DNA of 48,011 nucleotides, from the NCBI GenBank assembly GCA_947570615.1, contig CANOVJ010000028.1:1-48011 (forward strand), read 5' to 3'. Below, one piece after another: positions 7,750 through 25,983 of this stretch. Made by a program: the position numbers and the translations under genes. Below the pieces are notes generated by a model. It searched no databases, was not told the DNA's origin, and was given only the letters and a program-made list of their open reading frames with translations. The first letter of the stretch is position 1. Every line of letters begins with the position of its first letter. Source of the DNA: an uncultured Lachnospiraceae bacterium (GTDB lineage Bacteria; Bacillota; Clostridia; Lachnospirales; Lachnospiraceae).

Positions 7750-7889
7750 ATGAGTCCAATTCTGGAATGTAAAAATATCTGCTTTTCTTATCACAACTTA
7801 AACGGCGAGACCAGAGCCCTGACCGATATCTCCTTTCAGGTATGCCCAGGGGAGTTTCTGGCGATCGTAGGCCCCAGCGGGTGCGGTAA
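7750..7889 (+). pseudogene. NitT/TauT-type ABC importer ATPase, 5' part (split by element 1)
   Basis: The first 46 codons of an importer ATPase of the SsuB/TauB/NrtD/ThiZ kind: beta strands, the aromatic A-loop (CFSYHNLNGETRALTDISF) and then Walker A up to GPSGCG. The frame then leaves homology as NGMVGLW and stops at 7971. The missing part begins with KSTLL at 17980. GGAGG lies four bases before the ATG. Joining 7889 to 17982 gives an unbroken 255-aa ATPase, normal for the family. The gene is interrupted, not decayed: no other lesion is visible in either half. The transported substrate cannot be told, and no substrate-binding protein gene is in the window. Confidence 0.93.
7884..7889. other. 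attL of element 1 (core CGGTAA)
   Basis: The left junction. The six bases CGGTAA recur at the right junction (17976-17981). Host homology ends here in the Walker A codons. Inside the element, GATGGT lies at 7893-7898 and TGGA at 7906-7909; both have mirror copies at the same distances inside the right end. Confidence 0.85.
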
Positions 7890-7935
7890 TGGGATGGTTG
7901 GGCTTTGGATACCCTGCCGCAGAGACGCCGCCCTG

Positions 7936-7962
7936 AAAAGGGGCCGTCGCAACGACAGCCCC
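7936..7962 (-). terminator. terminator of the element 1 operon
   Basis: On the minus strand GGGGCTGTCG and CGACGGCCCC form a ten-base-pair stem (one G-U pair) with loop TTG, followed by TTTT. It lies 14 bases beyond the last cargo gene and about 50 bases inside the left end, so the operon is insulated from the host gene. Confidence 0.88.
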
Positions 7963-7976
7963 AAAATCTGATCCTT

Positions 7977-8420
7977 TCAGTGAATACCAAGATCCTCCCC
8001 CGTGATCAGGTCGATCCCGTTCTCCTTAAGAAGCGCCGTGAGAACGTCCGTGTCCGCCACGCGGAAAATCATGCAGGCCCGCCCGTCCTTCTGCCCGAAA
8101 ACAGAATACATATATTCCACGTCGATCCCCGCCCTGGAGACCACGCCGAGCACCCCGCTGAGCCCTCCGGGGGCATCCGAAACCGCCACGCCCACAACAG
8201 GCGTCATGGTCAGAATAAAGCCATGCTCCAGAAGAATGGAGGAAGCCTTCGGCGCGTCGTCCACAATCAGCCGCAAAACGCCGTAATCGGCCGTCTCCGC
8301 AATACTGATTGCCCGCATATTCACCTGATTTTCCGAGAGAATCGCGGTGATATCCGCAAGCTGCCCCGCTTTGTTTTCAAGAAATACCGAAATCTGAGGT
8401 ATTGTCATATTGGTAACCAT
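7977..8420 (-). CDS. small protein with two ACT domains
   Basis: The product of about 147 aa contains two ACT-type modules: IPQISVFLENKAGQLADITAILSE (N-terminal) and VGVAVSDAPGGLSGVLGVVSRAGIDVEYMYS (C-terminal). ACT domains bind amino acids or other small ligands and regulate partner enzymes. Stand-alone double-ACT proteins are commonly encoded beside paaK and ior genes in anaerobes, where they may sense an aromatic ligand; this is family knowledge plus inference. The start is uncertain: AAAGGAG is one base before the ATG at 8420 and 13 bases before an ATG at 8408, which fits homologues better. It is the last gene of the element 1 operon. Confidence 0.88.
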   Translation of the reverse strand: MVTNMTIPQISVFLENKAGQLADITAILSENQVNMRAISIAETADYGVLRLIVDDAPKASSILLEHGFILTMTPVVGVAVSDAPGGLSGVLGVVSRAGIDVEYMYSVFGQKDGRACMIFRVADTDVLTALLKENGIDLITGEDLGIH

Positions 8421-8490
8421 ACTCCTTTCCAAGCCCTGATAGCTTCTGCGCGGGAGACAGACTCAAAACCAGCGTCCGTCTCCTCCCGTC

Positions 8491-9789
8491 TTAGATTTTC
8501 CGTTTATCGATCACGCGCACGGCCTTGCCCTCGCTTCTTGTGATGGATTTGGGCGCAACCAGACGCACCTTCGCATAGATTCCCAGCATCGCCTTGAGCG
8601 CCGATACCAGAGCTTTCTCCATCTCCGTGATCTTACCCAGATTATCGGAGAAGTTTTCGGGCGTCATCTCCACCATCACCTCGATGGTGTCGGAATTTTT
8701 GATACGATCCACAATGATCTGATAGTTTGCGGGATACCCCTGCTCCAGGAGCACCGTCTCGATCTGGGACGGGAACACGTTGACGCCCTTGACGATCAGC
8801 ATATCGTCGCTCCTGCCCATGGGTTTGCTCATCTTCACATGGGTGCGGCCGCAGGAGCACTTCTTTCTGCTGAGCACGCAGATGTCCCTGGTGCGATAGC
8901 GCAGAAGCGGGAACGCCTCCTTGGTAATCGCCGTAAACACCAGCTCGCCCTTGCTTCCCTCGGGAAGAACCTCGCCCGTGTCCGGATCGATGATCTCAGC
9001 GATAAAGTGATCCTCGTTGATGTGCATGCCGGTCTGCTCGCTGCACTCAAAGGACACGCCCGGGCCGCTGGTCTCTGTGAGTCCGTAAATGTCGTACGCT
9101 TTGATGCCCAGCTTATTCTGGATATCCTGGCGCATCTGTTCGCTCCACGCCTCCGCGCCGAAGATTCCGGCCTTGAGCTTAATCTGATCACGCAGCCCCC
9201 GCTCGTGGATGCTCTCCGCCAGATAGGCGGCGTAGGAAGGGGTACAGCAGAGAATGGTCGCGCCCAGATCCACCATAAACTGGAGCTGACGCTCCGTGTT
9301 GCCCGACGAGAGAGGAAGCGTCAGACAGCCCACCTTATGGCTTCCCCCGTTCAGTCCCGGCCCTCCGGTAAAGAGTCCATAGCCGTAGCAGACGTGGCAG
9401 ACGTCCTCGTCGGTGCCGCCTGCCGCCACGATCGCCCGGGCGCAGCAGTCCTCCCACAGATCGATATCATGCTGCGTGTAAAAGGCCACCACCCTGCGTC
9501 CTGTGGTACCCGAGGTGGACTGGATACGCACACAGTCCTTAAGAGGGCTTGCCAGCAATCCGTAAGGGTAGGCCTCACGAAGGTCGTCCTTGGTCAGGAA
9601 GGGCAGCTTATGCAGATCCTCCACACTCTGAATATCCTCCGGCGCAACGCCCTTCTCCTCCATCTTTGCGCGGTAGTAGGGCACATGATCCCACACACGG
9701 CGCACCTGCCGGACCAGACGCTCATTCTGCCAGGCCAGAATCTGTTCCCGGTCCGCAGTCTCAATTTCCTTCTGATAATAGTTTTCCAT
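8491..9789 (-). CDS. paaK: phenylacetate-CoA ligase (AMP-forming), PaaK family
   Basis: The 432-aa enzyme joins an aryl acetate to CoA using ATP, or runs in reverse to make ATP from an aryl-acetyl-CoA. The phosphate-binding loop is STSGTTGRRVVAFYT near residues 92-106, the acyl-adenylate motif is YGLTETSGPG near 235, and the C-terminal region (RSDDMLIVKGVNVFPSQIE) is typical of PaaK. GGAGG precedes the ATG by seven bases. It follows iorB, whose product complex makes aryl-acetyl-CoA from aryl pyruvates, so the two can form one pathway. The exact acid (phenyl-, indole- or hydroxyphenyl-acetate) cannot be read from sequence. Confidence 0.92.
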   Translation of the reverse strand: MENYYQKEIETADREQILAWQNERLVRQVRRVWDHVPYYRAKMEEKGVAPEDIQSVEDLHKLPFLTKDDLREAYPYGLLASPLKDCVRIQSTSGTTGRRVVAFYTQHDIDLWEDCCARAIVAAGGTDEDVCHVCYGYGLFTGGPGLNGGSHKVGCLTLPLSSGNTERQLQFMVDLGATILCCTPSYAAYLAESIHERGLRDQIKLKAGIFGAEAWSEQMRQDIQNKLGIKAYDIYGLTETSGPGVSFECSEQTGMHINEDHFIAEIIDPDTGEVLPEGSKGELVFTAITKEAFPLLRYRTRDICVLSRKKCSCGRTHVKMSKPMGRSDDMLIVKGVNVFPSQIETVLLEQGYPANYQIIVDRIKNSDTIEVMVEMTPENFSDNLGKITEMEKALVSALKAMLGIYAKVRLVAPKSITRSEGKAVRVIDKRKI

Positions 9790-9846
9790 AAATCAGCCTC
9801 CTCATTTCCGCGCCGCTCTCTGCGCGTCGTTATCTTCTCCTCTTTT

Positions 9847-10419
9847 TTATGAATTTGCTCCCAGCGCAAAGGCCTTCCTGTTCATTTCCAGGAATTTCGG
9901 CGGCACACTGTGTTCTATGGCATCCATCCACTCCTCCTGCGTGAAGTCAAAGTGTCTGGAAAGCCTGCCCATGAGCACAAGGTTCACCGCCCTGCTGCTT
10001 CCCGCTTCCTCCGCCAGGGCCAGCGCATCCAGCGCGTCCACGTTGATTCCCAGCGTCCCGAGCTTTTCCTCCAGCTTTTGCGGATAATCCGCCATGCCCG
10101 CAATCACCGGCATGGGATTGATCTGCTGGCTGTTTACGATGATCCTGCCCCCCGGCTTTAAATACTCCGTATAGCGGGCCGCCTCCAGAAGCTCAAAGGA
10201 TAAGATGCAGTCCGCCTCCCCCTTATCTATGATGGGCGAGCAGACTCTCTCCCCCCAGCGGACATAGGTGACGACGCTTCCGCCCCGCTGGCTCATACCA
10301 TGTACCTCGCTGACCTTCACGTCATATCCCCTGCCAAGAAGGAGACGCCCCAGGAGCTTACTCGCCAGCAGGGTCCCCTGTCCGCCGACTCCCACGATCA
10401 TTATATTCTTTGTTTCCAT
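9847..10419 (-). CDS. iorB: indolepyruvate:ferredoxin oxidoreductase, beta subunit
   Basis: The product of about 190 aa is the gamma-domain type subunit (IMIVGVGGQGTLLASKLLGRLL) of 2-oxo acid:ferredoxin oxidoreductases. With IorA it oxidises aryl pyruvates, made by transamination of Trp, Phe and Tyr, to aryl-acetyl-CoA, CO2 and reduced ferredoxin. The HGMSQRGGSVVTYVRWG motif is characteristic. Its frame overlaps the end of iorA. The start is ambiguous between ATG at 10431 (one base after AAAGGAG plus C) and ATG at 10419; 10419 suits the conserved N-terminus. Confidence 0.93.
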   Translation of the reverse strand: METKNIMIVGVGGQGTLLASKLLGRLLLGRGYDVKVSEVHGMSQRGGSVVTYVRWGERVCSPIIDKGEADCILSFELLEAARYTEYLKPGGRIIVNSQQINPMPVIAGMADYPQKLEEKLGTLGINVDALDALALAEEAGSSRAVNLVLMGRLSRHFDFTQEEWMDAIEHSVPPKFLEMNRKAFALGANS

Positions 10420-10442
10420 ATTTACCGCCATGCTCCTTTCCG

Positions 10443-12179
10443 TCACTCTTGCGATCCCAGCGCGTCAAATCTGCAGAGTTGCTTACACACTCCGCATCCC
10501 ACACAGAGGGTGGCGTCAATCTTCGCTTTCCCGTCCTCCATGCTTATGGCCGGGCATCCGATGTTCATACAGGCCTTACAGCCCCTGCATTTTTCCGGGT
10601 CAGAGCTGATGGGGCCGGGATGCTTTACATATTTCAGCAGCGCGCAGGGGCGGCGTGAGATGATGACAGAGGGCTCCCTGACCGAGAGCTCCTGGCTGAT
10701 CACCCTCTGGCAGGCCTCCATGTCGTAGGGATCGACCACCTTCACCCGTCTGATTCCCACCGCGTGGCACAGGCTCTCCAGGTCGATTTTGGTGCATGGA
10801 TCCCCCTTCAGGTTGTAGCCGGTGGTCGGATTCTGCTGGTGTCCGGTCATGCCCGTGATAGAGTTGTCCAGAATGATCACGGTGGAATTGGATTCGTTGT
10901 AGGCGATATTGATCAGCCCGGTAACGCCGGAATGAATAAATGTGGAGTCCCCGATCACCGCCACAGTCCTTCCCGCACTCTCCTCATCTCCCGCTTTGAC
11001 AAAGCCGTGAAGGCCGGAAACGGAAGCCCCCATGCATACAGTGGTATCGATGGCTCCCAGAGGCGCTACGGCTCCCAGGGTATAGCATCCGATATCCCCC
11101 ATCACCGTGAGCTTTAATTTTTTCAGTACATAAAAGATGCTGCGGTGAGGACAGCCCGCGCACATCACAGGAGGCCGGGCCGGGATCCTCTCCTCCAGCA
11201 CGGGGCCTGTCTGCACGGCCCTGCCCAGCTTCTCCCTTACCAGATTCTGGCTCAGCTCTCCGATATTGGGAAACAGCTCCTTACCGGATACCGAAAGTCC
11301 AAGGCTCCTGCAGTGATCCTCTATGAAGCCGTCCAGCTCCTCCACTACCACAAGCCGTTCAACGCCGGCCGCGAAATCCCTGATCATGCGCTCCGGCATG
11401 GGCCAGATCATGCCCAGCTTAAGAACGGGGTATGTATCTCCAAACGCTTCCTTCACGTACTGATAGCAGGTGGAGGAGGTAATGATCCCCAGGGAGTTGT
11501 CCGTCCCCTGCTCTATCCGGTTGATATCCGCCGTCTCCGCCCAGGCGGTGAGCTCCCTGGTGCGCGCCTCCACCACAGGGTGCCGGTTCTTCGCATTGGC
11601 AGGCATCATAATATATTTACCGGGATTTTTTTCGTATTTCTTCGGTTCCGGGAGGATCCTCTCCCCCGGCTCAACCACACTCTGGGAGTGGCTGACGCGG
11701 GTACACATCTTAATCAGAACCGCCGTGTCAAACCTCTCGGAGAGCTCATAGCCGAGCCTGGCAAAGCGAAGCGCCTCCGCGGAATCGGACGGCTCGAGCA
11801 TGGGGATTTTGGCCGCCCTGGCATAATGGCGGGAATCCTGTTCGTTCTGGGAGCTGTGCATCCCCGCGTCGTCCGCCACACCGATGAGAAGCCCCGCGTT
11901 CACACCCGTGTAAGAAATCGTGAAAAGGGGGTCCGCGGCCACATTCAGTCCCACGTGCTTCATGGCGCAAAAGCTTCTCTTTCCGGCAAGGGATGCGCCC
12001 AGCGCCGCCTCGAGGGCTACCTTTTCGTTGGGAGCCCACTCTGCGTAGATCTCCTCATATTTCGCCACGCACTCGGTAATCTCCGTGCTGGGCGTCCCGG
12101 GATAGCTGGATACAAAGCAGCAGCCCGCCTCATAGAGGCCTCTGGCAACTGCCTCGTTGCCAAGCATCAGTGTCTTCAT
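10443..12179 (-). CDS. iorA: indolepyruvate:ferredoxin oxidoreductase, alpha subunit
   Basis: The 578-aa protein carries the pyrimidine-binding domain (MLGNEAVARGLYEAGC; SYPGTPSTEI), the thiamine diphosphate domain (GDIGCYTLGAVAPLG; GDSTFIHSGVTGLINIAYN) and a C-terminal two-[4Fe-4S] ferredoxin domain (CRGCKACMNIGCPA and CVGCGVCKQLC). These are the standard IorA modules in the standard order. AGGAGG lies nine bases before the ATG at 12179; the frame is open upstream but without a site. The stop overlaps the start region of iorB. The complex is cytoplasmic and oxygen-sensitive, as expected for a strict anaerobe. Confidence 0.95.
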   Translation of the reverse strand: MKTLMLGNEAVARGLYEAGCCFVSSYPGTPSTEITECVAKYEEIYAEWAPNEKVALEAALGASLAGKRSFCAMKHVGLNVAADPLFTISYTGVNAGLLIGVADDAGMHSSQNEQDSRHYARAAKIPMLEPSDSAEALRFARLGYELSERFDTAVLIKMCTRVSHSQSVVEPGERILPEPKKYEKNPGKYIMMPANAKNRHPVVEARTRELTAWAETADINRIEQGTDNSLGIITSSTCYQYVKEAFGDTYPVLKLGMIWPMPERMIRDFAAGVERLVVVEELDGFIEDHCRSLGLSVSGKELFPNIGELSQNLVREKLGRAVQTGPVLEERIPARPPVMCAGCPHRSIFYVLKKLKLTVMGDIGCYTLGAVAPLGAIDTTVCMGASVSGLHGFVKAGDEESAGRTVAVIGDSTFIHSGVTGLINIAYNESNSTVIILDNSITGMTGHQQNPTTGYNLKGDPCTKIDLESLCHAVGIRRVKVVDPYDMEACQRVISQELSVREPSVIISRRPCALLKYVKHPGPISSDPEKCRGCKACMNIGCPAISMEDGKAKIDATLCVGCGVCKQLCRFDALGSQE

Positions 12180-12234
12180 ATATATTTTCCTCCTGTTTAA
12201 AATTCCGCAGATGTTCTTTCGCCCATCCCTTCCG

Positions 12235-12271
12235 GAACGATTTCCGGCCGCCGTACATCCGTAAATCGTTC
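12235..12271. repeat. inverted repeat between symporter and iorA genes
   Basis: GAACGATTT (12235-12243) and AAATCGTTC (12263-12271) form a perfect nine-base inverted repeat around a 19-base GC-rich loop. There is no T-run. It could stabilise mRNA ends or bind a regulator between the two halves of the operon. Confidence 0.6.
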
Positions 12272-12296
12272 TGCTCACACTCGGACATCTGCTGAT

Positions 12297-13847
12297 TTAA
12301 GACTGATCGCCGATGGAATCGGTCACGGAAACCGTCACCTTCCTCTGGTAACAGGAGAAAATCTTCTCCAGCGTCTTCTGCTCAGGCGCCCTGGTCACAA
12401 CGCTCACCACCGGTACAATCACAAGCCCGGCCAGCATGCAGAACGCTCCGGCGTTGATGGGAGACTGCAGATATACGGGAAACGCGGAACGCACAAAGAT
12501 ATTGGCAAGCATCACTACCGTAGAGAACAGAAAGCTCACCCAGCAGGCCGCCTTCGTCGTCCGTTTCCAGTACAGGCCATAGAGAAAGGGCGCCAGGAAC
12601 GCGCCTGCCAGCGCGCCCCAGCTCACTCCCATGAGCTGTGCGATAAAGGTGACATTGGAACGGTACTGGATCAGCGCAAGCACCACGGAGACCGCGATAA
12701 ATACAACCAGAAGCCCCCGCATCCATTTAACCTGTTCCTTTTCATCCATCTCTTTAATAATATTACCTTTAATGAAGTCCAGCGTCAAGGTGGAGCTTGA
12801 TGCCAGCACCAGGGACGAGAGGGTGGACATGGAGGCGGAAAGCACCAGAATGACCACCACCGCGATCAGGATCGTGGGCAGGCCCGAGAGCATGGTCGGC
12901 ACAACCGAATCATAGCCGTTCGCCGCGATATCGATTTTGTCACTGAAAAGACGTCCAAAGCCGCCCAGGAAGTAGCATCCGCCGGACACGATGGTGGCGA
13001 ATACGGTGGAGATCACCATCCCCTTGTTGATTGCGCTCTCGCTCTTGATGGCATAGAATTTCTGCACCATCTGGGGCAGTCCCCAGGTTCCCAGACTGGT
13101 GAGGATCACCACGCCCAGAAGGTTCGCCGGATCCGGCCCGAAAAAGGAGTTAAATATTCCCGGCGCGGAGGAGACCGTCTCGTCGCTCACCGCAGAGAGC
13201 GCATCCAGCGCCGCCAGAAATCCCCCCTGGCTGTTTAACACCGCAAGGATCACCGCCACAATGCCGAAAATCATGATAATCCCCTGAATAAAGTCATTGA
13301 TGGCGGTGGCCATATAGCCCCCGGCTATGACATAGATTCCGGTAAGCACAGCCATGGCGATCACGCATACGCTGTAATCGATGTCAAAGGCCATCCCGAA
13401 CAGACGGCTCAATCCATTGTAGAGACTGGCCGTGTAGGGAATCAGAAAGATAAAAATGATCACCGAAGCCGCCAGCTTTAAGGGCCTGCTCTCAAAACGC
13501 TGCCCGAAAAATTCCGGCATGGTGGCGCTGTTTAAATGCTGGGTCATGATGCGGGTACGCCGTCCCAGCACCGCCCAGGCCAGCAGGGAGCCGATAAAGG
13601 CGTTTCCAAGCCCCGCCCAGGTGGCCGCAATCCCGTATTTCCATCCGAACTGTCCCGCATAGCCCACGAAGACCACCGCCGAGAAATAGCTGGTTCCATA
13701 GGCAAAGGCGGTAAGCCAGGGCCCCACGTTCCTTCCCCCCAGCACAAACCCGTTCACATCCGTGGCGTGCCTGCGGCAATAGAATCCAATGCCGATCATC
13801 ACGCCAAAAAAAACAATAAGCAGTGCAAGCTTGATAAAAAGATCCAT
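12297..13847 (-). CDS. sodium:solute symporter (SSS family)
   Basis: The 516-aa integral membrane protein has about 13 hydrophobic segments starting at KLALLIVFFGVMIGIGFYC. It has the SSS pattern: GGRNVGPWLTAFAYGTSYFSA early, GGYMATAINDFIQGIIMIFG in the middle, and LVLSASMSTLSSLVLASSSTLTLDF later. The family (PutP, PanF, acetate and aryl-acid permeases) couples Na+ entry to uptake of a carboxylate or amino acid. In this operon an aryl acid or aromatic amino acid is the likely cargo; this is inference. GAGGGG lies shortly before the ATG at 13847. Longer open frame upstream overlaps the ligase gene and is not used. Confidence 0.9.
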   Translation of the reverse strand: MDLFIKLALLIVFFGVMIGIGFYCRRHATDVNGFVLGGRNVGPWLTAFAYGTSYFSAVVFVGYAGQFGWKYGIAATWAGLGNAFIGSLLAWAVLGRRTRIMTQHLNSATMPEFFGQRFESRPLKLAASVIIFIFLIPYTASLYNGLSRLFGMAFDIDYSVCVIAMAVLTGIYVIAGGYMATAINDFIQGIIMIFGIVAVILAVLNSQGGFLAALDALSAVSDETVSSAPGIFNSFFGPDPANLLGVVILTSLGTWGLPQMVQKFYAIKSESAINKGMVISTVFATIVSGGCYFLGGFGRLFSDKIDIAANGYDSVVPTMLSGLPTILIAVVVILVLSASMSTLSSLVLASSSTLTLDFIKGNIIKEMDEKEQVKWMRGLLVVFIAVSVVLALIQYRSNVTFIAQLMGVSWGALAGAFLAPFLYGLYWKRTTKAACWVSFLFSTVVMLANIFVRSAFPVYLQSPINAGAFCMLAGLVIVPVVSVVTRAPEQKTLEKIFSCYQRKVTVSVTDSIGDQS

Positions 13848-13863
13848 TTTTCCCCTCTTTTCT

Positions 13864-15501
13864 CTAGTTTCTGATCTGTGCCTCCACAAGACTGCCATGA
13901 CAGTACCGCTCCCGCAGCAACGGCTTTTCGATCTTGCCTGTGGGATTTCTGGGCACCTGTTCAAAGATGATTTTTCTGGGCCGTTTGTATCTGGGAAGCT
14001 CCCTGCAGAATGCCATGATCTCGTCCTCCGTGCAGGAAACATCCTCTTTGAGCTCGATCACCGCCGCCGCAATCTCGCCAAGCCGGGCGTCCGGCAGGCC
14101 GATGACAGCCGCATCCTTAACCTTATCGCTGCGGCGCAGAAAATCCTCGATCTGTACCGGGTACAGATTTTCTCCTCCGGAGATGATGACATCCTTTTTC
14201 CGGTCTACCAGATAGATGAATCCGTCCTCGTCCATCCGGGCCATATCCCCCGTATAGAGCCATCCGTCCTTCAAAACCTCGGCCGTCGCCTCGGGGTTTT
14301 TATAGTAACAGAGCATGACGCCGGGCCCGTGGACAATGAGCTCTCCCACCTCTCCCCGGGGCGTGTCCCTGCCCTGCTCGTCCACAATCCTGGCCTCCCA
14401 GTGATATCCGGGTTTTCCGATGGCTCCCACCTTATGTATATTTTCCACCCCGAGATGGACACAGCCAGGCCCTGTAGATTCGCTCAGACCATAGTTGGTA
14501 TCGTACTGGTGATGGGGGAAATGCTTCTTCCAGCGCTGGATCAGGCTGGGGGGCACGGGCTGCGCCCCGATATGCATCAGCCGCCACTGTTCCAGCAGAT
14601 AATGCCCCATGTCCACCTTTCCGGACTCGATGGCGTCCAGAAGATCCTGGGCCCAGGGCACCAGCAGCCAAACGATCGTACATTTTTCCTCCGTAACCGC
14701 CCGCAGGATCCACTCCGGCTTTACCCCCCGCAAAAGCACCGCCCGGCTGGCCGACAGGAGCGATCCGAACCAGTGCATTTTCGCGCCGGTGTGATAAAGA
14801 GGCGGAATGCACAAAAACACATCCTCCCTGGTCTGGCCGTGGTGATTCTGCTCCGTCTCGCAGGAGGCGCGCAGCGAAAGGTGGTCGTGCAGGATCGCTT
14901 TCGGAAAGCCTGTGGTGCCGGAGGAAAAGTAGATCGCCGCATAGTCCGTCTCCTTAAGTTCAATGGGCGGCGCGCTGGAGGAACAAAAGCCCGTCAGCTT
15001 CAGAAAATCCTCCGTGTAGGACGGTCCCCCCTTTCCGGGAAAGAACATCATCTTAACCTTTGGAAGCTCCTGTGCGATGGCATCCATACGGCTGATGAAC
15101 TCCGGCCCGAAAACCAGAGCCTCCACGTCTGCAAGCTCCAGACAGTATCTGATCTCCTCCGCGGAATAGCGGAAATTTAAGGGGACGGCCACGCCGCCCG
15201 CCTTGAGAATCCCGAAATAGACAGGCAGCCATTCCAGACAGTTCATCATCAGAATGCCCACCTTTTGTTCCCGCTCCAGGCCGCGGCTTAAGAGCAGATT
15301 GGCAAAGCGGTTGGCCCGCCTGTCAAAATCCGCCCAGCTCAGCTCCCTGCGGTAGGGAGCCCCGTTTTCCGCGCCCTCGATCAGGCTCGCCTCCCGCCAG
15401 GTCACCGCGCTGTCCCTCTCCTGGGAGGGATTCAGCTCCACAAGCGCCGGATCCGAACCATAAAGCCGGGCATTGCGCTCCAAAAAGTCAGTGATTACCA
15501 T
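13864..15501 (-). CDS. AMP-forming acyl-CoA synthetase
   Basis: The 545-aa enzyme of the ANL superfamily activates a carboxylic acid to its CoA thioester. Visible motifs are the P-loop YFSSGTTGFPKAILHDH near 185, YGLSESTGPGC near 310, GWLYTGDMARMDEDGFIYLVDRKKD near 420-445, and the catalytic lysine region NPTGKIEKPLLRE at the C-terminus. It is unlike the PaaK-type ligase in the same operon, so the island encodes two different CoA ligases. AAAGGAGG lies eight bases before the ATG at 15501. The gene is 16 bases upstream of the symporter gene. The substrate is unknown; a medium-chain or aryl acid is most likely from context. Confidence 0.9.
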   Translation of the reverse strand: MVITDFLERNARLYGSDPALVELNPSQERDSAVTWREASLIEGAENGAPYRRELSWADFDRRANRFANLLLSRGLEREQKVGILMMNCLEWLPVYFGILKAGGVAVPLNFRYSAEEIRYCLELADVEALVFGPEFISRMDAIAQELPKVKMMFFPGKGGPSYTEDFLKLTGFCSSSAPPIELKETDYAAIYFSSGTTGFPKAILHDHLSLRASCETEQNHHGQTREDVFLCIPPLYHTGAKMHWFGSLLSASRAVLLRGVKPEWILRAVTEEKCTIVWLLVPWAQDLLDAIESGKVDMGHYLLEQWRLMHIGAQPVPPSLIQRWKKHFPHHQYDTNYGLSESTGPGCVHLGVENIHKVGAIGKPGYHWEARIVDEQGRDTPRGEVGELIVHGPGVMLCYYKNPEATAEVLKDGWLYTGDMARMDEDGFIYLVDRKKDVIISGGENLYPVQIEDFLRRSDKVKDAAVIGLPDARLGEIAAAVIELKEDVSCTEDEIMAFCRELPRYKRPRKIIFEQVPRNPTGKIEKPLLRERYCHGSLVEAQIRN

Positions 15502-15558
15502 GTATGGTTCCTCCTTTTTCGTATTTTCGTAATCCATTGATTTATCTGTTTCTTTCTG

Positions 15559-15957
15559 TCAGCCAATGGCAAAGCCATTGACTGTGGCATGGGCCACATA
15601 GGTTCCCAGCTCATCCTCTATATCCACCGCGTACAGTGCGGTGGTATGCCCCTCTCTCAGGCATGAGGCCTTTGCGATCAGGCGCTTCCCCTTTGCAGGG
15701 GAGAGAAAGGTAATCGACGCGTTCTGGCTGACCGTCTTCCTCTGCGCATACCCGTTGGCCGCGATGGCGCAGGCAAAATCCGCCAGGGTAAAAACCGCCC
15801 CGCCCATGGGGACGTTATTCTCATTCATATGCCGCTGCTCCAGGGTCAGGGAACACACTGCCTTCCCGGGCTCTGCACAATCAATGACGATCCCCGTTGT
15901 ACCCACGGCAAAATGATCGTTTTGAAAGCGGCGGCGAATCTCCTCCAAAGCTGACAT
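15559..15957 (-). CDS. PaaI-family hotdog thioesterase
   Basis: The 132-aa protein has the hotdog pattern NVPMGGAVFTLADFACAIAAN near residue 50, with conserved Gly-Gly and acidic residues, and the strand NASITFLSPAKGKRLIAKA. Members hydrolyse aryl- or acyl-CoA thioesters. In an operon that forms aryl-acetyl-CoA it could release free acid and recycle CoA. AAAGGAG lies seven bases before the ATG at 15957; an upstream in-frame ATG at 15987 has no site. It begins about 45 bases after the recombinase stop, so recombinase and cargo are probably on one transcript. Confidence 0.9.
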   Translation of the reverse strand: MSALEEIRRRFQNDHFAVGTTGIVIDCAEPGKAVCSLTLEQRHMNENNVPMGGAVFTLADFACAIAANGYAQRKTVSQNASITFLSPAKGKRLIAKASCLREGHTTALYAVDIEDELGTYVAHATVNGFAIG

Positions 15958-16004
15958 GAACAGACTCCTTTCCTGAAAAAACTCCATTTACCACTTTAAT
16001 ACTT

Positions 16005-17675
16005 TTAATCGCTAAAGTCAAGATTTTTTTGCGGAGGCGCCGATCCCTTTCTCAGATATACGTGGGCAGACTCTCCGTCCCATAAAACCTCCTCGATGAT
16101 CTCCTTCAAAAACTCCCGCTTCTCTGTGAAGGGCAGCCGGTCAAACACCGCCGGGAAATCCATCAGCCCTTCCGAAAAATCTCCGCCGAAATCAGGCTGT
16201 TCCGCCCTCTGCGCCGCCTCCTCTTCCTCCCCGATCCGTCTCTCCAGCTCTCTGCATTCGGCGTCCAGTCTCTGTATCTCTTCATTAATATATCTGACGG
16301 AAACGCTCTGTGTCTCCAGCTTTCCCACGGAAGCCACCAGCGCCTGGATCTTCCCTCTCTTTTTTTCATATTCCTGAGAAAGGAGCGCCTTTCTCGACAC
16401 TTCCCCAATATTTGTGTCCCGGATCCGGCTCCTTAATTCCTCCAGCAGAGGAATCATCCCCTCATCCGGCGCTGCCAGACGCAGAATTCGTCTGCACACT
16501 TCGTTATCCAGCCGATTCCCGTGGACATTTTTGTTCCCGCACCTCTCTCCATGGGTTTTATCCTTATAGGGGCAGCGGTATGAAAAGGTGCGCTCCCCCT
16601 TCTGCGTGACTCTGGAGGCCGGATAGTTCTTGGGCCGCATCCGGTGGTCGCAGGTACAGCAGACCAGCCCCGACAAAAGTGAAGCATTGTTTCTGAGATT
16701 CCTGAAATTCTCCCCCCGGCTCTTATTGTCCTCGAGCAGCTTCTGGACGCGTACATAGTCCTCCCCCCGTATGACTCCCTGGTGGCGTCCCATAGATATG
16801 ATCCACGTTTCCAGGGGCATGCTCTGATTCTTATATGTGGAAGAAGTGGTCCTGGCGTATGCCATCAGTCCCGATTTCTGATCCAGCTCCTCCCGGTCAA
16901 TACACACCTGGCACCCCATGTCGTAAAAATACTGCCAGGCCTCCTGGTCCGCAACACAGTACACCGGATTGACCAGAATGTCCCTGATCCCGGAAACCGT
17001 GAACTCCCTGCCCCTTCTGGTTTTGATCCCGTCCGCGAGAAGCGCTTCGAGGACTTTGGTGATAGAGCGCCTTTCCAGAAAGCAGGAAAAGATAAATCGG
17101 ACGAGCGGGATCTCCCCCGGATTCCAGGTAAGGCAGTACAGGGATTTCTTTTTCAGAGCCGCCGCCTCCTGCTCCAGCTTCATGGAGGAAAAGCCAAGGG
17201 GCGTGTTTCCCCCGAGCCAGCGGCCGCTTCTGGCGAGCATGATCATATTGTCCTTTACCCGCTCCGCGATCTGCTCCCGCTCCATCTGGGCAAGCACGCC
17301 CGAAAAATACAGCATGGCCTTGCCGATGGGGGTGGTCGTATCGAACTTCTCCCTGACGCTGATAAAGGATGTGTTCATGCGGTTTAAATCCTCCATCAGA
17401 TTCGCCAGATCCGCCAGATTTCTTCCCAGCCGGTCCAGCCGGTAACAGACCAGGTAGTCAAAATGCCGGGTTTTCAGCTCCTGCATCATCTGCTGAAACC
17501 GGGGCCGCCTGGTGTCCTTACCGGAAAACCCTTCGTCCTCAAACTCCAGGATCTGCGCCTGATCGCCTCCCTCTATAAACATGGCGATGTATTCCCTGCA
17601 CATGATGAGCTGGTTCTCGACGCTTTCCCCCTTTCCGGTCCATTTCGATTTTCTGCTGTAGACGGCGATCAGCAT
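16005..17675 (-). CDS. large serine recombinase of element 1
   Basis: The 556-aa site-specific recombinase has a resolvase domain (residues 1-150) with catalytic Ser10 in YSRKS and the RLDRLGRNLADL motif. A recombinase domain follows (about 165-270), then a zinc ribbon (CCTCDHRMRP ... YRCPYKDKTHGERCGNK) and a C-terminal coiled coil with LEELRSRI and RRIGEEEEAAQRAE. This is the layout of Clostridial TndX/TnpX-type and phage large serine integrases, which exchange DNA at a two-base core without target duplication. AAAGGAGG lies eight bases before the ATG. Its ATG overlaps the stop of the upstream small gene as ATGCTGA. No lesion is visible, so it may be active. Confidence 0.95.
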   Translation of the reverse strand: MLIAVYSRKSKWTGKGESVENQLIMCREYIAMFIEGGDQAQILEFEDEGFSGKDTRRPRFQQMMQELKTRHFDYLVCYRLDRLGRNLADLANLMEDLNRMNTSFISVREKFDTTTPIGKAMLYFSGVLAQMEREQIAERVKDNMIMLARSGRWLGGNTPLGFSSMKLEQEAAALKKKSLYCLTWNPGEIPLVRFIFSCFLERRSITKVLEALLADGIKTRRGREFTVSGIRDILVNPVYCVADQEAWQYFYDMGCQVCIDREELDQKSGLMAYARTTSSTYKNQSMPLETWIISMGRHQGVIRGEDYVRVQKLLEDNKSRGENFRNLRNNASLLSGLVCCTCDHRMRPKNYPASRVTQKGERTFSYRCPYKDKTHGERCGNKNVHGNRLDNEVCRRILRLAAPDEGMIPLLEELRSRIRDTNIGEVSRKALLSQEYEKKRGKIQALVASVGKLETQSVSVRYINEEIQRLDAECRELERRIGEEEEAAQRAEQPDFGGDFSEGLMDFPAVFDRLPFTEKREFLKEIIEEVLWDGESAHVYLRKGSAPPQKNLDFSD

Positions 17676-17908
17676 CCCCGGCCTCCTTTCCCGATCCCCG
17701 GATCGTGTTCCGTCCCTGCGGCATCTGCAAAGTATGATTTCACATTTTCGATGATGGTATCCAGAAGCTCCAGCTGCGTTTCCCTGGACAGTCCCTTCCC
17801 GCCCAGGCTTCTCTGCGCATATAAAACCGTGCGCAGATTCATTCTGCCCCGAATGTACTCAGTGGGTATATCGCCTTCAATCTGAATGTGGATATGATTT
17901 CCGTCCAT
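17669..17908 (-). CDS. 79-aa small protein upstream of recombinase 1
   Basis: A soluble 79-aa protein beginning MDGNHIHIQIEGDIP, with a predicted helix around SRETQLELLDTIIENVKSYF. I do not recognise a family with certainty. GGGAGGA lies six bases before the ATG, and its end overlaps the recombinase start by seven bases, so the two are translationally coupled. It is the first gene of the island operon, transcribed from the right attachment end. The position fits a directionality factor or regulator of the recombinase; that is inference from context only. Confidence 0.75.
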   Translation of the reverse strand: MDGNHIHIQIEGDIPTEYIRGRMNLRTVLYAQRSLGGKGLSRETQLELLDTIIENVKSYFADAAGTEHDPGIGKGGRGC

Positions 17909-17939
17909 TAAATCCTCCCGTTGTTGCGGGTATTGGTCT

Positions 17940-17945
17940 ATTATA
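17940..17945 (-). promoter_or_regulatory. -10 box of the element 1 operon, inside the attachment arm
   Basis: A perfect TATAAT on the minus strand, 32 bases before the first gene and 35 bases from the crossover. No strong -35 box is seen at 17 bases; TGGACA is too close (12 bases). The promoter overlaps the region expected to bind recombinase, so recombinase binding could control its own operon. Confidence 0.5.
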
Positions 17946-17975
17946 TGCGGTAGATGATGTCCATCATTTCACCAT

Positions 17976-17981
17976 CGGTAA
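17976..17981. other. attR of element 1 (core CGGTAA)
   Basis: The right junction with the same CGGTAA as 7884-7889. Host coding homology resumes at once as AAA TCT ACC CTG (Lys-Ser-Thr-Leu). Mirror copies of the left-end motifs lie at 17971-17976 (ACCATC) and 17960-17963 (TCCA). Confidence 0.85.
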
Positions 17982-18609
17982 ATCTACCCTGCTCTCCATC
18001 ATCGCAGGGCTCCTTACACCCGAATCCGGGCAGATCCTGCTAAATGAGGAAGAACAGGAAAAGATTCGTATCGGTTACATGCTCCAGCAGGATCATCTCC
18101 TGGAATGGCGCACCATCTGGAAAAATATTCTGCTGGGGCCGGAAATCAACAAATGCCTGTCCCCGGAAAAAGAGGCGCTGGCCGAAAAGCTTCTGAAGGA
18201 TTACGGCCTGTACCGTTTTAAGGATAAACGTCCCGGCGAGCTCTCCGGCGGCATGAAGCAGCGGGCCGCCCTGATCCGGACCATGGTCATGGAGCCGGGT
18301 CTTCTGCTTTTAGATGAGCCCTTCAGCGCGCTGGACTATCAGACGAGACTGATGGTCTCCGCCGATATCGGAAATATCATCCGCTCCAGCGGCATCACCG
18401 CCATCCTGATCACCCATGATCTGTCGGAGGCCATCTCCCTGGCGGACCGGATCCTTGTGCTGACCAGACGCCCCGCCACCATCAAAAAAAATATTCCGGT
18501 TCAACTCACCCTGCCGGAGAATACTCCCCTGGCGGCAAGAAATGCCCCGGAATTTCAGGAACTGTTCAGTTTACTGTGGAAGGAGATTTCGGATGAATAT
18601 AAAGGCTAG
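17980..18609 (+). pseudogene. NitT/TauT-type ABC importer ATPase, 3' part (split by element 1)
   Basis: The 209 codons that complete the ATPase begun at 7750. They start with KSTLLSIIAGLL (rest of Walker A), then the Q-loop IGYMLQQDHLLEW, the ABC signature LSGGMKQRAAL, Walker B LLLLDEPFSALD, and the H-loop ILITHDLSEA. All key residues are intact and no stop interrupts the frame. No ribosome site or start codon is found at its 5' end, so in the inserted state it should not yield a working ATPase. Its stop overlaps the start of the permease gene by 17 bases. Confidence 0.93.
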
Positions 18610-19378
18610 TCAACGCAGACAACAGAGGGCACAGCTGACAGGGGCGTCCTGTGCGCAGGTGCAGGCGCAGCCACAGGCCGACTCCGCCCTGGAGCCCCTT
18701 ACCGCCCAGCAGCTCTATATCAGAGATCACCACCGGCATCACCACATGGTCACCGTGCTGCGCATCCTTGTCCTGATCCTCTTTCTCTCCCTGTGGGAAG
18801 CTGCCGGACGTCTGGAGTGGATCGATACATTCTTTTTCAGCAGCCCGACAATGGTGGCTTCGTTTTTCGTCCAGATGCTCAGGGACGGATCCTTCTTCAC
18901 CCACACAGGGATCACCCTGCTGGAAACGCTTCTGAGCTTTGCGCTGGTCACGGTCATCTCTGTGCTCTGCGCCACCCTTCTGTGGTACTCAAAAACCCTC
19001 TCGGAGATCACCGAGCCTTATCTGGTGGTCTTAAACAGTCTTCCCAAATCCGCCCTGGCGCCTCTGTTTATCGTGTGGCTGGGCACGGGAATCAACACGA
19101 TCATCGTGGCAGGTATCTCCGTCGCCGTCTTCGGCTCCGTGATCAGCCTCTACACCAGCTTCCGGCAGGTGGACAGCGAGAAGCTCAAGCTTATCCGCAC
19201 CCTGGGCGGCAGCCGTATCGACGCTTTCCACAAGGTGGTGCTGCCCTCCTCCATTCCGGCCATCTTAAGCAATATGAAGGTGAATATCGGCCTGGCGCTG
19301 GTGGGCGTGATCATCGGGGAATTCCTGGCGGCCAGGAGAGGGCTTGGGTATCTGATTATCTATGGGTCGCAGGTGTTC
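18593..19378 (+). pseudogene. NitT/TauT-type ABC importer permease, 5' part (split by element 2)
   Basis: The first 262 codons of a membrane permease: a Gln/Ala-rich cytoplasmic tail of about 50 residues, then hydrophobic segments from VLRILVLILFLSLWEAA onward, and the EAA loop (LKLIRTLGGSRIDAFHKVVLPSSIPAIL) that docks on the ATPase. The frame ends as YGSQVF, then runs into element 2 and stops at 19384. AAGGAGA lies seven bases before the ATG at 18593. The missing last 34 codons are at 25879-25983. Joined, they give a 296-aa permease with the expected final transmembrane helix. Confidence 0.93.
19376..19378. other. attL of element 2 (core TTC)
   Basis: Left junction in the permease codon for Phe (GTG TTC). 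Inside the element the arm AGGTGATGAGCGGAAATGAT follows directly and is mirrored at the right end. Confidence 0.85.
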
Positions 19379-19454
19379 AGGTGATGAGCGGAAATGATAA
19401 ACAACGTTTCATTTTGTCCCGGCCCTCAACGATCCTCTATAAAAAGTCTATGAT

Positions 19455-21134
19455 TCAGGATCCCCTTTCCGTCTTTGTCCCGCGCCGGCGAATGGCGTCC
19501 CGCGTCCAGGGCAGGCGGAGCGGGGCAGGAGCGTCCCCCTCTGTTCCGGGAGCGGATAAATCACGCGCATCCCCAATCCCCATCCGTGCCCCCGGCTCAA
19601 AGGAAACCTCCATGTAATCGGGAAACACCCTGATTCGGGAAATGGCCTCCATCATTTCCCCGGTCTGCGCCTGCCTGATCACGCCTGCTTCCAGCCTTTC
19701 CCGGATCGTTTCCATCCTGCGCTGCGGCCCGCCATTGTGACAGACGTCGCTTTCCATCTGACGCTGTTCCTCCAGCCGGGCTTCTGCGGAGTTTAGCTCT
19801 TCATTTTTCATCCGAAAGTCGGCGTCCGGGATAACCCCCTCCAGCAGCTTATCCAGCAGAATCCTCTTCTGCCGGGTGATCTGATCCCTGGCCTTTTTCA
19901 GGCGGTGCTCCCCGGAATATGAATCATCTCCCCCCAGGGCCTTTTGCAGTATTGTCAGCGTCTCCCTTAAGAGACGGTCCCTGCGCGTCTCCTGCTCCTG
20001 CTCCGTGTAAAGCTGTTCCAGCATTGCCAGGAGTCTTCCCTCCTCCAGATGCACGTTATCGCATCCCCTCCCCTCCTCCTTCTGCGTCTTTCTGATCCCG
20101 TCTCTGCGCATGCAGGGATCCCTCCTGCCATTCTGGAGATAGTTGCTGCATTTCCACTCGGTCACTCCCCCGCTTTTATTCCGCCGCGTCACACGGTAAA
20201 AGGGACTCCCGCAGAGGCCGCAGACCAGCTTCCCGGACAGATCATACTTCCCCGGCCTGCCTCCCTTTACAGACACGCCGTCCTGGTTTTTCTCCTGTCT
20301 CCTCTGATCCAGCCCCCGGTTCGCCCTCTCAAAGAGCTCCCCGTCCACAATCGGCGGCAGGACATTTTCATGCAGTATCCACTCCGAGGGCAGATTTTTG
20401 CAGACCCGTTTACTTTCAAAGTCATAATGTTGCCGGTTCTGAACCACGGTTCCCTTATAAATGGGGTTCCGGATGATATTCCGGATCAGGGAAGGGCCAA
20501 GCTTTCTTCCCTGATGATTCCGGTATCCATTCTGATAAAGAATCTCCGCCGCAGAGTGTGTGCCATACCCGCCGGCCGAGAGTTCAAAAATCATTCGAAT
20601 CATCCCGGCCTCCGCCTCATCGATCACGACCCTCTTATCCGGCATCTTCTTATACCCATAAGTCCGGTTCGTGAATACAAAGCTTTTTCCCTCTCTCTGC
20701 CGATTCCGGTGGGCGTTGTTGATCTTCTTGCTCAGCTCCCGGCTGTATTCCTCTGCCAGTATGGCCCTGATCCCGGAAATCAGCGCGTCGTCCGGCGTAT
20801 AGAATTTACCCTCCAGATACATATAGAGACGCTTGTTGTTTTTCTGCATCCGATCCAGGAACAGGTACCAGTCCTTCGTGTTGCGCATAAGCCGATCCTG
20901 GCTTTTGATTACGATAATGTCAAACTTATCGCTCTCCAGATCCTGGTAAAGCCGGTTATATTCGCTTCGCCCCTTCGAGGTGGTGCCGCTTCTGGCCTCC
21001 ACATAGAAATCCACAAGCTCCCACCCCTCCCTGGCGGCGCAGGCTCTGGATTCCCGTACCTGCTTTGCAAGCGCGTCCTTCTGCGCCTCCTCCTCCGTAC
21101 TGCATCGGTTGTAGATCACTGCGCGAAGACTCAA
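19455..21134 (-). CDS. large serine recombinase of element 2
   Basis: A 559-aa recombinase distinct from that of element 1. The resolvase domain has catalytic Ser12 in YNRCST and the KSQDRLMRNTKDW motif. A recombinase domain follows (TYGYKKMPDKR ... RNIIRNPIYKGTVV), then a zinc ribbon (CGLCGSPFYRV ... WKCSNYLQNGRRDPC) and a C-terminal coiled coil. The start is TTG at 21134, placed by AAGGAGG ten bases upstream and by homology. That TTG overlaps the TGA of the 41-aa gene as TTGA. The stop lies 77 bases from the left end of the element. No lesion is seen. Confidence 0.95.
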   Translation of the reverse strand: MSLRAVIYNRCSTEEEAQKDALAKQVRESRACAAREGWELVDFYVEARSGTTSKGRSEYNRLYQDLESDKFDIIVIKSQDRLMRNTKDWYLFLDRMQKNNKRLYMYLEGKFYTPDDALISGIRAILAEEYSRELSKKINNAHRNRQREGKSFVFTNRTYGYKKMPDKRVVIDEAEAGMIRMIFELSAGGYGTHSAAEILYQNGYRNHQGRKLGPSLIRNIIRNPIYKGTVVQNRQHYDFESKRVCKNLPSEWILHENVLPPIVDGELFERANRGLDQRRQEKNQDGVSVKGGRPGKYDLSGKLVCGLCGSPFYRVTRRNKSGGVTEWKCSNYLQNGRRDPCMRRDGIRKTQKEEGRGCDNVHLEEGRLLAMLEQLYTEQEQETRRDRLLRETLTILQKALGGDDSYSGEHRLKKARDQITRQKRILLDKLLEGVIPDADFRMKNEELNSAEARLEEQRQMESDVCHNGGPQRRMETIRERLEAGVIRQAQTGEMMEAISRIRVFPDYMEVSFEPGARMGIGDARDLSAPGTEGDAPAPLRLPWTRDAIRRRGTKTERGS

Positions 21135-21256
21135 CTGCTCTCTTCCTCCTTTCTGATCTGACGCAGCATCCTGAGCTGTTCTTCCTGAGAAATGAGCTTT
21201 TCCCGCAGCAAAATGCGGGAAATCTGTTCCAGTATTTTTTTATCTTCCCGGGACAT
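21131..21256 (-). CDS. 41-aa SHOCT-like protein upstream of recombinase 2
   Basis: A short, helical, charged protein whose core ILLREKLISQEEQLRMLRQI resembles the SHOCT motif (short C-terminal-type domain with a Lys/Leu helix, a turn, then a Glu-Glu helix). AGGAGG lies seven bases before the ATG. Its TGA overlaps the TTG start of the recombinase, so the two are coupled. Its place matches that of the 79-aa protein before recombinase 1, but the sequences are unrelated by eye. A role in recombination control is plausible and unproven. Confidence 0.75.
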   Translation of the reverse strand: MSREDKKILEQISRILLREKLISQEEQLRMLRQIRKEEESS

Positions 21257-21412
21257 GGCGCTGCCTCCTGGAGCTATATTTTATACTTTTTTTATATTCA
21301 GAGTGTTTTTGTTTTAAAACACATATGTTAAACTGTTTTTATGCCCTGAGGAATCCGCAGGCTCGGCCTGATATTCCTCAGACCGCAGGATTGTCACGGG
21401 GAGGAAATGCGG
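21257..21412. promoter_or_regulatory. divergent control region of element 2 with operator-like repeats
   Basis: The stretch separates the leftward recombinase operon from the rightward exporter operon. It is AT-rich and holds GTTTTAAAAC (21311-21320), ACATATGT (21321-21328) and a perfect nine-base inverted repeat CTGAGGAAT (21346-21354) / ATTCCTCAG (21373-21381) in the exporter leader. TATAAA on the minus strand near 21285 may be the recombinase -10 box. No regulator gene is in the element, so a host regulator or the recombinase would have to act here. Confidence 0.5.
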
Positions 21413-22117
21413 ATGGATTCTTTTGTTGAATTTAAAAATGTCGGCAAGACGTATCATATGGGGGAAGTGGACATTGAGGCGCTCAGGGATGTGAATTTCA
21501 CCATCAGAAAGGGGGAATTCTGCGTGGTGGTGGGCGCCTCCGGCGCCGGAAAAACAACGATCCTGAATATTTTAGGGGGAATGGACTCGCTCTCCTGCGG
21601 GCAGGTTTTTCTGGATGGCCAGGAAATCTCCTCCTACAACAAAAAGAAGCTGACTGCCTACAGGCGTTTTGATATCGGTTTTGTCTTTCAGTTTTACAAT
21701 CTGGTGCAGAATCTCACCGCCCTTGAAAATGTGGAGCTGGCGGCCCAGATCTGCAGAGATCCGCTGGACGCCATGTCGGTTCTGGAGATGGTGGGCCTCA
21801 AAGACAGGGCGGGAAATTTCCCCGCCCAGCTCTCCGGCGGGGAACAGCAAAGGGTTGCCATCGCCAGAGCCCTGGCCAAAAACCCCAAGCTTCTGCTCTG
21901 CGACGAGCCCACCGGAGCCCTGGACTACAATACGGGCAAGGCGGTTTTGAAGCTGCTGCAGGATGCCTGCCGCAAAAGTGGAATGACCGTGGTAGTGATT
22001 ACCCACAATCAGGCGCTGACCGCCATGGCGGACAGAATTATCACCGTAAAAAGCGGGACCGTGCGGAAGATGGAGCTGAACGAACACATTGTGCCGGTGG
22101 AGGAAATCGAATGGTAA
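21413..22117 (+). CDS. ABC transporter ATPase, MacB/LolD type
   Basis: The 234-aa ATPase has Walker [10 protein letters not shown] near residue 40, Q-loop [19 protein letters not shown], signature [15 protein letters not shown], Walker [14 protein letters not shown] and H-loop VVITHN. The [14 protein letters not shown] stretch and the DEPTGALD motif mark the exporter-like MacB/LolD/FtsE/BceA group. GGGGAGG lies eight bases before the ATG at 21413; an ATG two codons earlier (21407) is too close to it. It powers the FtsX-like permease encoded 79 bases downstream. Such pairs act on lipoproteins, peptides or cell-wall targets; the substrate here is unknown. Confidence 0.93.
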
Positions 22118-22196
22118 CGCCTCCCGGGGGAAGGAACAGGAAACGTCACAGATTTTTCCTGACAGCATTTGTCATGAGCGGTATGGGAGTGAATGG

Positions 22197-25832: not shown

Positions 25833-25875
25833 CGCCGATGCGGCATCCCGTTTTATCATTTGCGCTCCTTACCTC

Positions 25876-25878
25876 TTC
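25876..25878. other. attR of element 2 (core TTC)
   Basis: Right junction. Host coding resumes as CAG CTA AAC ATG (Gln-Leu-Asn-Met), continuing YGSQVF from 19378. The inner arm GTTTTATCATTTGCGCTC (25850-25867) mirrors the left arm. Confidence 0.85.
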
Positions 25879-25983
25879 CAGCTAAACATGGTGATCACCT
25901 CCATCATCATCCTGTGTATCATCGCCATGGCTCTCTACCAGTGCATCCAGTGGGCGGAGCATTTTTACAAAAAGAAATACTGA
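25876..25983 (+). pseudogene. NitT/TauT-type ABC importer permease, 3' part
   Basis: After the TTC core, 34 codons read QLNMVITSIIILCIIAMALY and on to a Lys-rich end, then TGA at 25981. This is the last transmembrane helix of the permease that starts at 18593, exactly in frame across the junction. It has no start or ribosome site of its own. It is intact, which argues for a recent insertion or for selection on the rejoined gene. Confidence 0.9.

Follow-up and report, generated by a model that had tools for sequence, protein, structure and literature searches.

The 48,011-nucleotide stretch analyzed here (hereafter the window; contig CANOVJ010000028.1 of assembly GCA_947570615.1, from an uncultured Lachnospiraceae bacterium) carries an importer operon in which the gene for the ATP-binding cassette (ABC) ATPase is split by an island encoding a large serine recombinase (LSR). 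We refer to the island as island A, to its recombinase as LSR A and to its insertion site as dock A. The N-terminal half of the ATPase (7750-7887, plus strand) ends in GPSGCG, with codon 46 at 7885-7887, and the gene restarts in frame at 17980 with KSTLLSIIAG; the split point is the Walker A lysine codon (Lys47). The sequence CGGTAA is present at both junctions (7884-7889 and 17976-17981), with a spacing of 10,092 bp, and joining the flanks without the island gives a stop-free ABC ATPase of 255 amino acids. This arrangement had been proposed in a preliminary description of the locus, and its coordinates, its repeated hexamer and, by translation of the joined flanks, its restored gene were all borne out. 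An uninterrupted free orthologue, which that description suggested looking for, is present in a genome of the same genus (G264) and is 84% identical over residues 2-255. Because both halves match this one orthologue (88% identity over the N stretch, 84% over the C stretch), they evidently derive from a single gene, and not from different paralogues as the description had allowed. LSR A (16005-17675, minus strand) has Resolvase, Recombinase and Zn-ribbon domains by Pfam and is encoded in single copy in its own genome, where the four other matches are at most 32% identical. The disturbed region reaches past position 18609: the downstream permease gene is also split, by a second element, island B.

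To place LSR A in its family, we used a sample of 397 genomes, one genome per species. Relatives of LSR A at an expect value (E) ≤1e-60 occur in 36 of these, the window's own genome (G000) included, and five full-length relatives, three of them from assemblies titled Lachnospiraceae, lie in named assemblies. Among 17 genomes searched for the ATPase, the best match is intact only in G264 and G169 and is a C-terminal piece in 15 (G000, G021, G028, G104, G176, G202, G204, G262, G347, G367 and G397-G401); in G176 and G398 the alignment continues into the element across a stop. Every junction viewed in these 15 genomes lies before the Lys47 codon (14/14 N sides and 15/15 C sides), a placement that is not due to chance. 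The 15 recombinases at dock A form one clade of a 34-row tree (Shimodaira-Hasegawa approximate likelihood-ratio test 100), on which the target is a single change, and Ser10, which we take to be the catalytic serine, is invariant among 14 aligned relatives. All 15 examined clade members split the same orthologue, although the 17 searched genomes each hold at least 59 ATPase matches at E ≤1e-8. The preliminary description had supposed that a recombinase aimed at the P-loop may have many targets; instead, the orthologue and the codon are the same in 15/15 cases, and none of the 15 members placed sits at another Walker A sequence. DUF4368, which according to the accessible text of PMC10083194 occurs in 63% of a clade of multi-targeting LSRs, was not found in LSR A by Pfam scan. 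With one orthologue as its target and no DUF4368, LSR A is not a multi-targeting LSR.

The recombinase of G345 (L027; locus L153, 2376-5695), which is 34% identical to LSR A, splits the same ATPase orthologue at another position, behind ITHDISEAI, presumably the H-loop. This is a single case, and the other tree relatives outside the LSR A clade were not seen in the ATPase within the flanks examined. No relative of LSR A was confirmed in IMG/VR, and matches at E ≤1e-60 in phage and plasmid records number one phage (34% identity) and five plasmid (≤38%).

Comparison of the junctions narrows the core. In L072 and L076, the base preceding AA is not the same on the N side as on the C side. The base following AA is T in 12 of 14 N sides; on the C side it is A in 14 of 15, the exception being L089 (G). 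Since the bases around AA differ between the two sides among relatives, the core is the AA with which the Lys47 codon begins. The claim that a large serine recombinase inserted without target duplication at a two-base core, with attB inside the P-loop coding sequence, is supported, with the core reduced from CGGTAA to AA. LSR A and LSR B, the recombinase of island B, each combine the three domains named above with a 2-bp core (AA and TT, respectively) and no target duplication; an identical 2-bp core is the rule for large serine integrases in the accessible text of PMC3556126. The outer arms of many members are inverted repeats of each other (TGTTTCC...ACCATCGGC-AA-TGCGATGGT...GGAAACA); in the window and in a genus that we call g29, the arms diverge. 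In G400 (L089), the recombinase gene is reversed inside the island relative to the others, with the att arm seen in the usual orientation. L038 and L089 were also considered as inverted islands; this was rejected, as the visible arm is normally oriented and only the recombinase gene is reversed.

The ATPase was found at E ≤1e-62 in 206 of the 397 family genomes, leaving 191 without it at that cut-off, and when the match limits of all 206 were checked, 10 proved to be cut at codon 47, all with a clade recombinase, and G345 at its other position. In G123 (L149), the dock A junction (GGC AAA TCA) coincides exactly with a contig end, which may reflect coexisting integrated and empty forms in the assembly, or chance. 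A further dock near residue 76, considered for G105, G152, G055 and G111, was rejected by tblastn: the short match in G105 is a contig edge, and the other three align along the whole ATPase with extra sequence.

The ten complete islands measure 2.4, 5.6, 6.5, 7.1, 7.4, 8.6, 10.1, 16.4, 16.4 and 25.8 kb. Their cargo ranges from none, in the 2.4-kb island, to that of the 25.8-kb island, and the sole gene common to all ten is the recombinase. Cargo is shared within two pairs, G028/G347 and G397/G398; the ABC ATPase domains in the cargo of G202 and of G397/G398 are 28% alike. In the window, the cargo comprises indolepyruvate ferredoxin oxidoreductase genes, a phenylacetate-CoA-ligase-like enzyme (CoA, coenzyme A), an ACT protein, a sodium symporter, an acyl-CoA ligase and a thioesterase, which by their domains are predicted to be a gene set for aryl-2-oxoacid oxidation and CoA ligation. 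No phage structural or transfer genes were recognized among the nine Pfam-scanned proteins of this island. Among the other islands, one type of cargo consists of LysE, PfkB and serine-dehydratase-like genes, another pairs Fic with a BspA-type repeat protein, and a third has ABC-2 membrane proteins; there are also an FtsX/ABC, two-component and PLD set and a pentose set with a glycyl-radical enzyme. The G367 island has relaxase domains, and that of G204 holds the recombinase and one open reading frame (ORF) of 118 amino acids (ORFs of at least 90 amino acids being counted). The Fic protein of the G176 island (L075, 8157-8861) strongly matches the candidate defence family PDC-S04 (E 6e-104).

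Island B and its recombinase (19378-25875) were not mentioned in the preliminary description. The permease match stops after GSQVF, and the end of the permease reappears near position 25,880; joined at TT (19376/25876), with 6,500 bp removed, the gene encodes 296 amino acids. LSR B lies outside the LSR A clade, its top identity in the tree being 21%, to L032. Relatives at E ≤1e-60 occur in 29 of the 397 genomes, of which 17 have the recombinase in the equivalent permease site (dock B), one (G321) has it elsewhere and 11 are unplaced. This survey covered 20 fetched loci plus the window (21), two of which (L206 and L210) hold no permease; the permease is cut after codon 243 in 18 of the other 19, both sides being seen in six, and is intact in G321. 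Both docks are filled in the window, G104 and G262, and also in G401, which is outside the 206-genome sample. Within that sample, co-occupancy (3 genomes, with 10 and 17 of 206 filled) gives a one-sided Fisher p of 0.039, a weak signal. In G401 (L205, 521-1228), the exporter ATPase of island B shares 95% identity with its counterpart in the window, versus 64% for LSR B, suggesting exchange of cargo or of recombinase. As to a possible co-inheritance of island B by the same two genomes, synonymous divergence (dS) between them is 0.79 for the exporter ATPase, 1.62 for the permease and 2.10 for LSR B. As to the substrate of the importer, no NCBIfam model scored above its cut-off among the best 25 of the 187 ATPase matches listed or the seven permease matches, and no riboswitch reached the gathering threshold in eight sources.

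Table 1. Features of the interrupted importer operon and its two islands (positions are those of the window).
Feature	Position	Strand	Basis
Importer ATPase, N half, to Gly46 of GPSGCG	7750..7887	+	88% identical to G264 free orthologue
Core dinucleotide AA, left junction of island A (attL)	7888..7889	+	Junction comparison
Island A (dock A), equivalent points 10,092 bp apart	7890..17979	.	Joined flanks
Island A cargo: ACT-domain-pair protein	7977..8432	-	Pfam ACT_8
Island A cargo: phenylacetate-CoA-ligase-like AMP-binding enzyme	8491..9789	-	Pfam; best NCBIfam PaaK, under its cut-off
Island A cargo: 2-oxoacid:ferredoxin oxidoreductase beta-type subunit (IorB-like)	9847..10446	-	Pfam POR; IorB suggested by position beside IorA
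Island A cargo: indolepyruvate ferredoxin oxidoreductase alpha subunit	10443..12278	-	TIGR03336 over its cut-off
Island A cargo: sodium:solute symporter	12297..14042	-	Pfam SSF
Island A cargo: acyl-CoA ligase	13864..15537	-	Pfam AMP-binding
Island A cargo: thioesterase	15559..15987	-	Pfam 4HBT
LSR A, recombinase of island A	16005..17675	-	Pfam; clade in tree; Ser10 invariant in alignment of 14
79-amino acid ORF directly upstream of LSR A	17669..17908	-	No Pfam match
Core dinucleotide AA, right junction of island A (attR)	17980..17981	+	Junction comparison
Importer ATPase, C half, from Lys47	17980..18609	+	84% identical to G264
Importer permease, N part, to Phe of GSQVF	18593..19378	+	Pfam BPD_transp_1
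Core dinucleotide TT, left junction of island B	19376..19377	+	Junction comparison
Island B (dock B), equivalent points 6,500 bp apart	19378..25875	.	Joined flanks
LSR B, second recombinase	19455..21134	-	Pfam; top identity in tree 21%
Island B cargo: ABC exporter ATPase	21407..22117	+	LolD/FtsE-like NCBIfam, 25 matches listed, all below cut-off; 95% identical copy in G401
Island B cargo: large FtsX-like permease with long coiled coil	22089..25832	+	Inspection; weak lolCE/devC and SMC matches, all below cut-off
Core dinucleotide TT, right junction of island B	25876..25877	+	Junction comparison
Permease, C-terminal remainder	25878..25983	+	Joined flanks

The fate of the split ATPase can be followed most closely in genus g29, where the gene was found at E ≤1e-55 in 18 of 20 genomes, six of them cut (G028, G347, G403, G407, G412 and G419) and 12 free. 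Among 18 further genomes of the genus, five (G403, G407, G410, G416 and G419) have a relative of the g29 recombinase at E ≤1e-60, and in all five it lies next to the ATPase N half, together with some or all of the same cargo; in G412 the attR arm is present, and the recombinase was not found at that threshold. In an 18-row tree of the ATPase C half plus permease, the carriers G028, G347, G419, G407 and G403 form one clade with the free G418 (100/100). The other forks of this clade are not settled by the tree, in which the carrier label needs three changes and G412 is placed elsewhere. The ATPase of G418 is contiguous and scarless (GGTAAATCT), and its genome has no relative of the g29 recombinase at E ≤1e-60. 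Counting G410 and G416, which are placed by N half, recombinase and cargo and not by the tree, the island is present in seven of the eight species genomes of the clade.

Carrier genes in this clade are strongly constrained. The ratio of nonsynonymous to synonymous divergence (dN/dS) of the ATPase C half is 0.005-0.025 in carriers (10 pairs) and 0.021-0.134 in free genes (8 pairs), that of the short carrier N half 0-0.18 (21 pairs), and that of the carrier permease 0.025-0.051 (10 pairs); these pairs are not independent. There are no stops in seven N halves and six C halves of the g29 ATPase, whereas a neutral simulation of 206 codons with a branch of 0.6 produced 6.4 stops on average, and just 0.05% of its runs stayed free of stops. 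LSR dS correlates with ATPase C-half dS (r 0.98 in 10 pairs; 0.91 in the six pairs without G028) and with permease dS (r 0.89 in 10 pairs), and between G028 and G347 dS is 0.86-1.46 for island genes and 0.31-1.62 for flank genes, including the ATPase C half and permease. In g29, the same island has diverged together with the host genes. A second lineage, G397/G398, has ATPase dN/dS values of 0.006 (N) and 0.045 (C) at dS of 1.62 (N) and 1.07 (C), with dS of 0.52-1.25 for island genes and 0.58-1.40 for flanks. In these two lineages, the split ATPase at dock A has long remained under purifying selection with the island in place. Together with the nested scarless free gene, the low dN/dS in carriers suggests that the interrupted gene is in use, most simply via precise excision. 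By eye, a motif of the form CATAT...TATG recurs ahead of the ATPase gene in both the free and the carrier species of g29 (L214-L222, L073, L074 and L230-L232); it could be an operator or promoter.

We therefore favor, with a probability of about 0.62, a reading in which island A is a site-specific integrative island, the importer operon is its docking platform and precise excision restores the gene. LSR A would recombine attP with an attB spanning the Walker A codons of one importer ATPase, with the 2-bp core AA, and the island would carry any cargo lying between its ends. Integration would turn the ATPase off, and precise excision would rebuild it without a scar; LSR B would act likewise in the permease. 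Purifying selection on the split gene while the island is resident implies that excision would occur often enough for the importer to matter, and from the g29 sequences we infer excision as the origin of the free gene in G418 and repeated excision in the carriers. Several observations weigh against this reading. The nearest relative of LSR A (G401) is 70% identical with saturated dS, leaving the window's island without a close vertical partner, and the window's island A cargo was not found at >35% identity in the G401 locus, whose sequence stops 7.5 kb upstream of its recombinase. A consensus pattern for the joined attP or excised circle found none in 397 genomes, although the consensus misfits some attP arms, such as those of g29, and 66 IMG/VR loci fetched with two patterns contained no relative of LSR A, LSR B or the ATPase. 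No small ORF upstream of the recombinases that might encode a directionality factor is common to all 17 compared; the 79-amino acid ORF of the window matches the small ORF upstream of the G401 recombinase at E 0.19, which is not significant. G418 stands beside G403 with support of 94/100, in which the bootstrap value of 94% is below the tool's mark of 95. LSR dS and permease dS correlate at only r 0.37 in the six close pairs without G028, and a neutral branch of 0.14 gives 2.4 stops, with none in 8% of runs. The divergences of LysE and PfkB vary among carriers, indicating that cargo recombines, and sampling one genome per species leaves room for polymorphism within species.

Such polymorphism could account for the pattern if the island inserted repeatedly in each species, a common free allele bore the selection and the sequenced carriers were recent, making excision in carrier lines unneeded. 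A recombinase that always chooses the same codon would make repeated insertion resemble inheritance, and both the varying LysE and PfkB dS and the low number of carriers in the family sample (just 10/206) fit this account. It is hard to reconcile, however, with an island carried by seven of eight g29-clade species genomes, which would be unlikely if free alleles dominated and which leads us to favor excision, or with an LSR dS that matches host dS. We consider this account unlikely, though it has an appreciable chance of being right. The importer might instead have been lost at insertion, the island having docked passively in a dispensable gene whose halves are now decaying. The ATPase is not essential, being below the cut-off in 191 of 397 family genomes, and in the window, G104, G262 and G401 the operon is occupied by two islands at once; but the long-term carriers, with strong constraint and no stops, already disfavor passive docking, and by eye the region upstream of the ATPase is alike in carriers and the free G418. 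We regard such decay as improbable.

Two further alternatives concern the target and the product of the split gene. Targeting of Walker A sequences in general, as the preliminary description had read the site, draws some support from 13 attB sites whose information is concentrated at the first two codon positions, with less at the third, a pattern that could reflect either motif recognition or mere protein conservation. It is nonetheless very improbable, given 15/15 insertions in one orthologue and the situation in the window's own genome, where a DNA pattern for GPxGCGK(S/T)T (omitting AGY serine codons) has three further matches; two of them score 38 and 18, versus 45-65 for used sites, and the third was unscored. 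In the attB weight matrix behind these scores, the paralogue set contained orthologues, and only the scores of the two own-genome alternatives are used. That the two halves function as separate polypeptides could be argued from the C half in the window, whose open frame extends upstream to 284 codons versus 211 matched. We find this scarcely plausible for a cut inside the P-loop, with element-side stops shortly upstream of the C half in L077, L081, L079 and L084. A bolder extension of the excision reading is that the operon is a double genetic switch, in which two unrelated LSR lineages, each with interchangeable cargo, keep adjacent transporter genes off and regulated precise excision turns the importer on. 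We offer this tentatively, as a possibility that we are inclined to doubt; if true, a cell would trade cargo for uptake, or would keep island-free cells for one life stage.

Elements that split genes in frame and restore them on excision offer the closest parallels. The gin element in gerE of Bacillus cereus is likewise non-phage, uses serine recombinases and splits its host gene in frame, and its excision rebuilds the gene; unlike island A, it has three recombinases, spans 28.6 kb and was shown experimentally to excise in sporulation (accessible text of PMC5595907), whereas each complete island here has one recognized recombinase, sits in an importer gene and is known from sequence alone. The elements skin in sigK (PMC5025042) and SPbeta in spsM (PMC4191935), as far as the accessible parts of those papers describe them, also use a serine recombinase, and their precise excision, switched by an accessory directionality protein, restores the gene; they are prophages or prophage-like and interrupt sporulation genes, and no counterpart of the directionality protein was found here. 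Interruption elements of heterocyst-forming cyanobacteria, in the accessible text of PMC4874684, are alike in having the recombinase as the common gene, in their wide length range and in the question of retention versus re-insertion; their hosts, genes and recombinases are different, and no importer dock is described in that text. Diverse LSRs that converge on one conserved coding site, for example in a prolyl isomerase, are described in PMC10083194, the main text of which, as far as accessible, contains neither "ABC transporter" nor "ATP-binding" and describes neither two docks per operon nor selection acting on an interrupted gene. In the open-licence literature searched, no title or abstract was recognizable as dealing with serine recombinases that dock at a Walker A sequence or in an ABC importer, and the accessible part of PMC6435816 had nothing on this. 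Island A shares with the skin, gin and nif type of gene-intervening element an in-frame split at the att core and, at dock A in two lineages, a constrained host gene. By the features examined here it is an LSR element, and by analogy it would work like gin, skin, SPbeta and the cyanobacterial elements.

To our knowledge, most gene-interruption elements described so far lie in genes for sporulation or heterocyst formation. Here, two recombinase lineages with exchangeable cargo land in one transporter operon, apparently of the Lachnospiraceae, and the ATPase gene that they find there is still under selection in its broken form. The survey also yields recombinases for which attB, attP and core have been mapped. 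Whether such elements are parasites of a spare site or reversible switches can now be tested.

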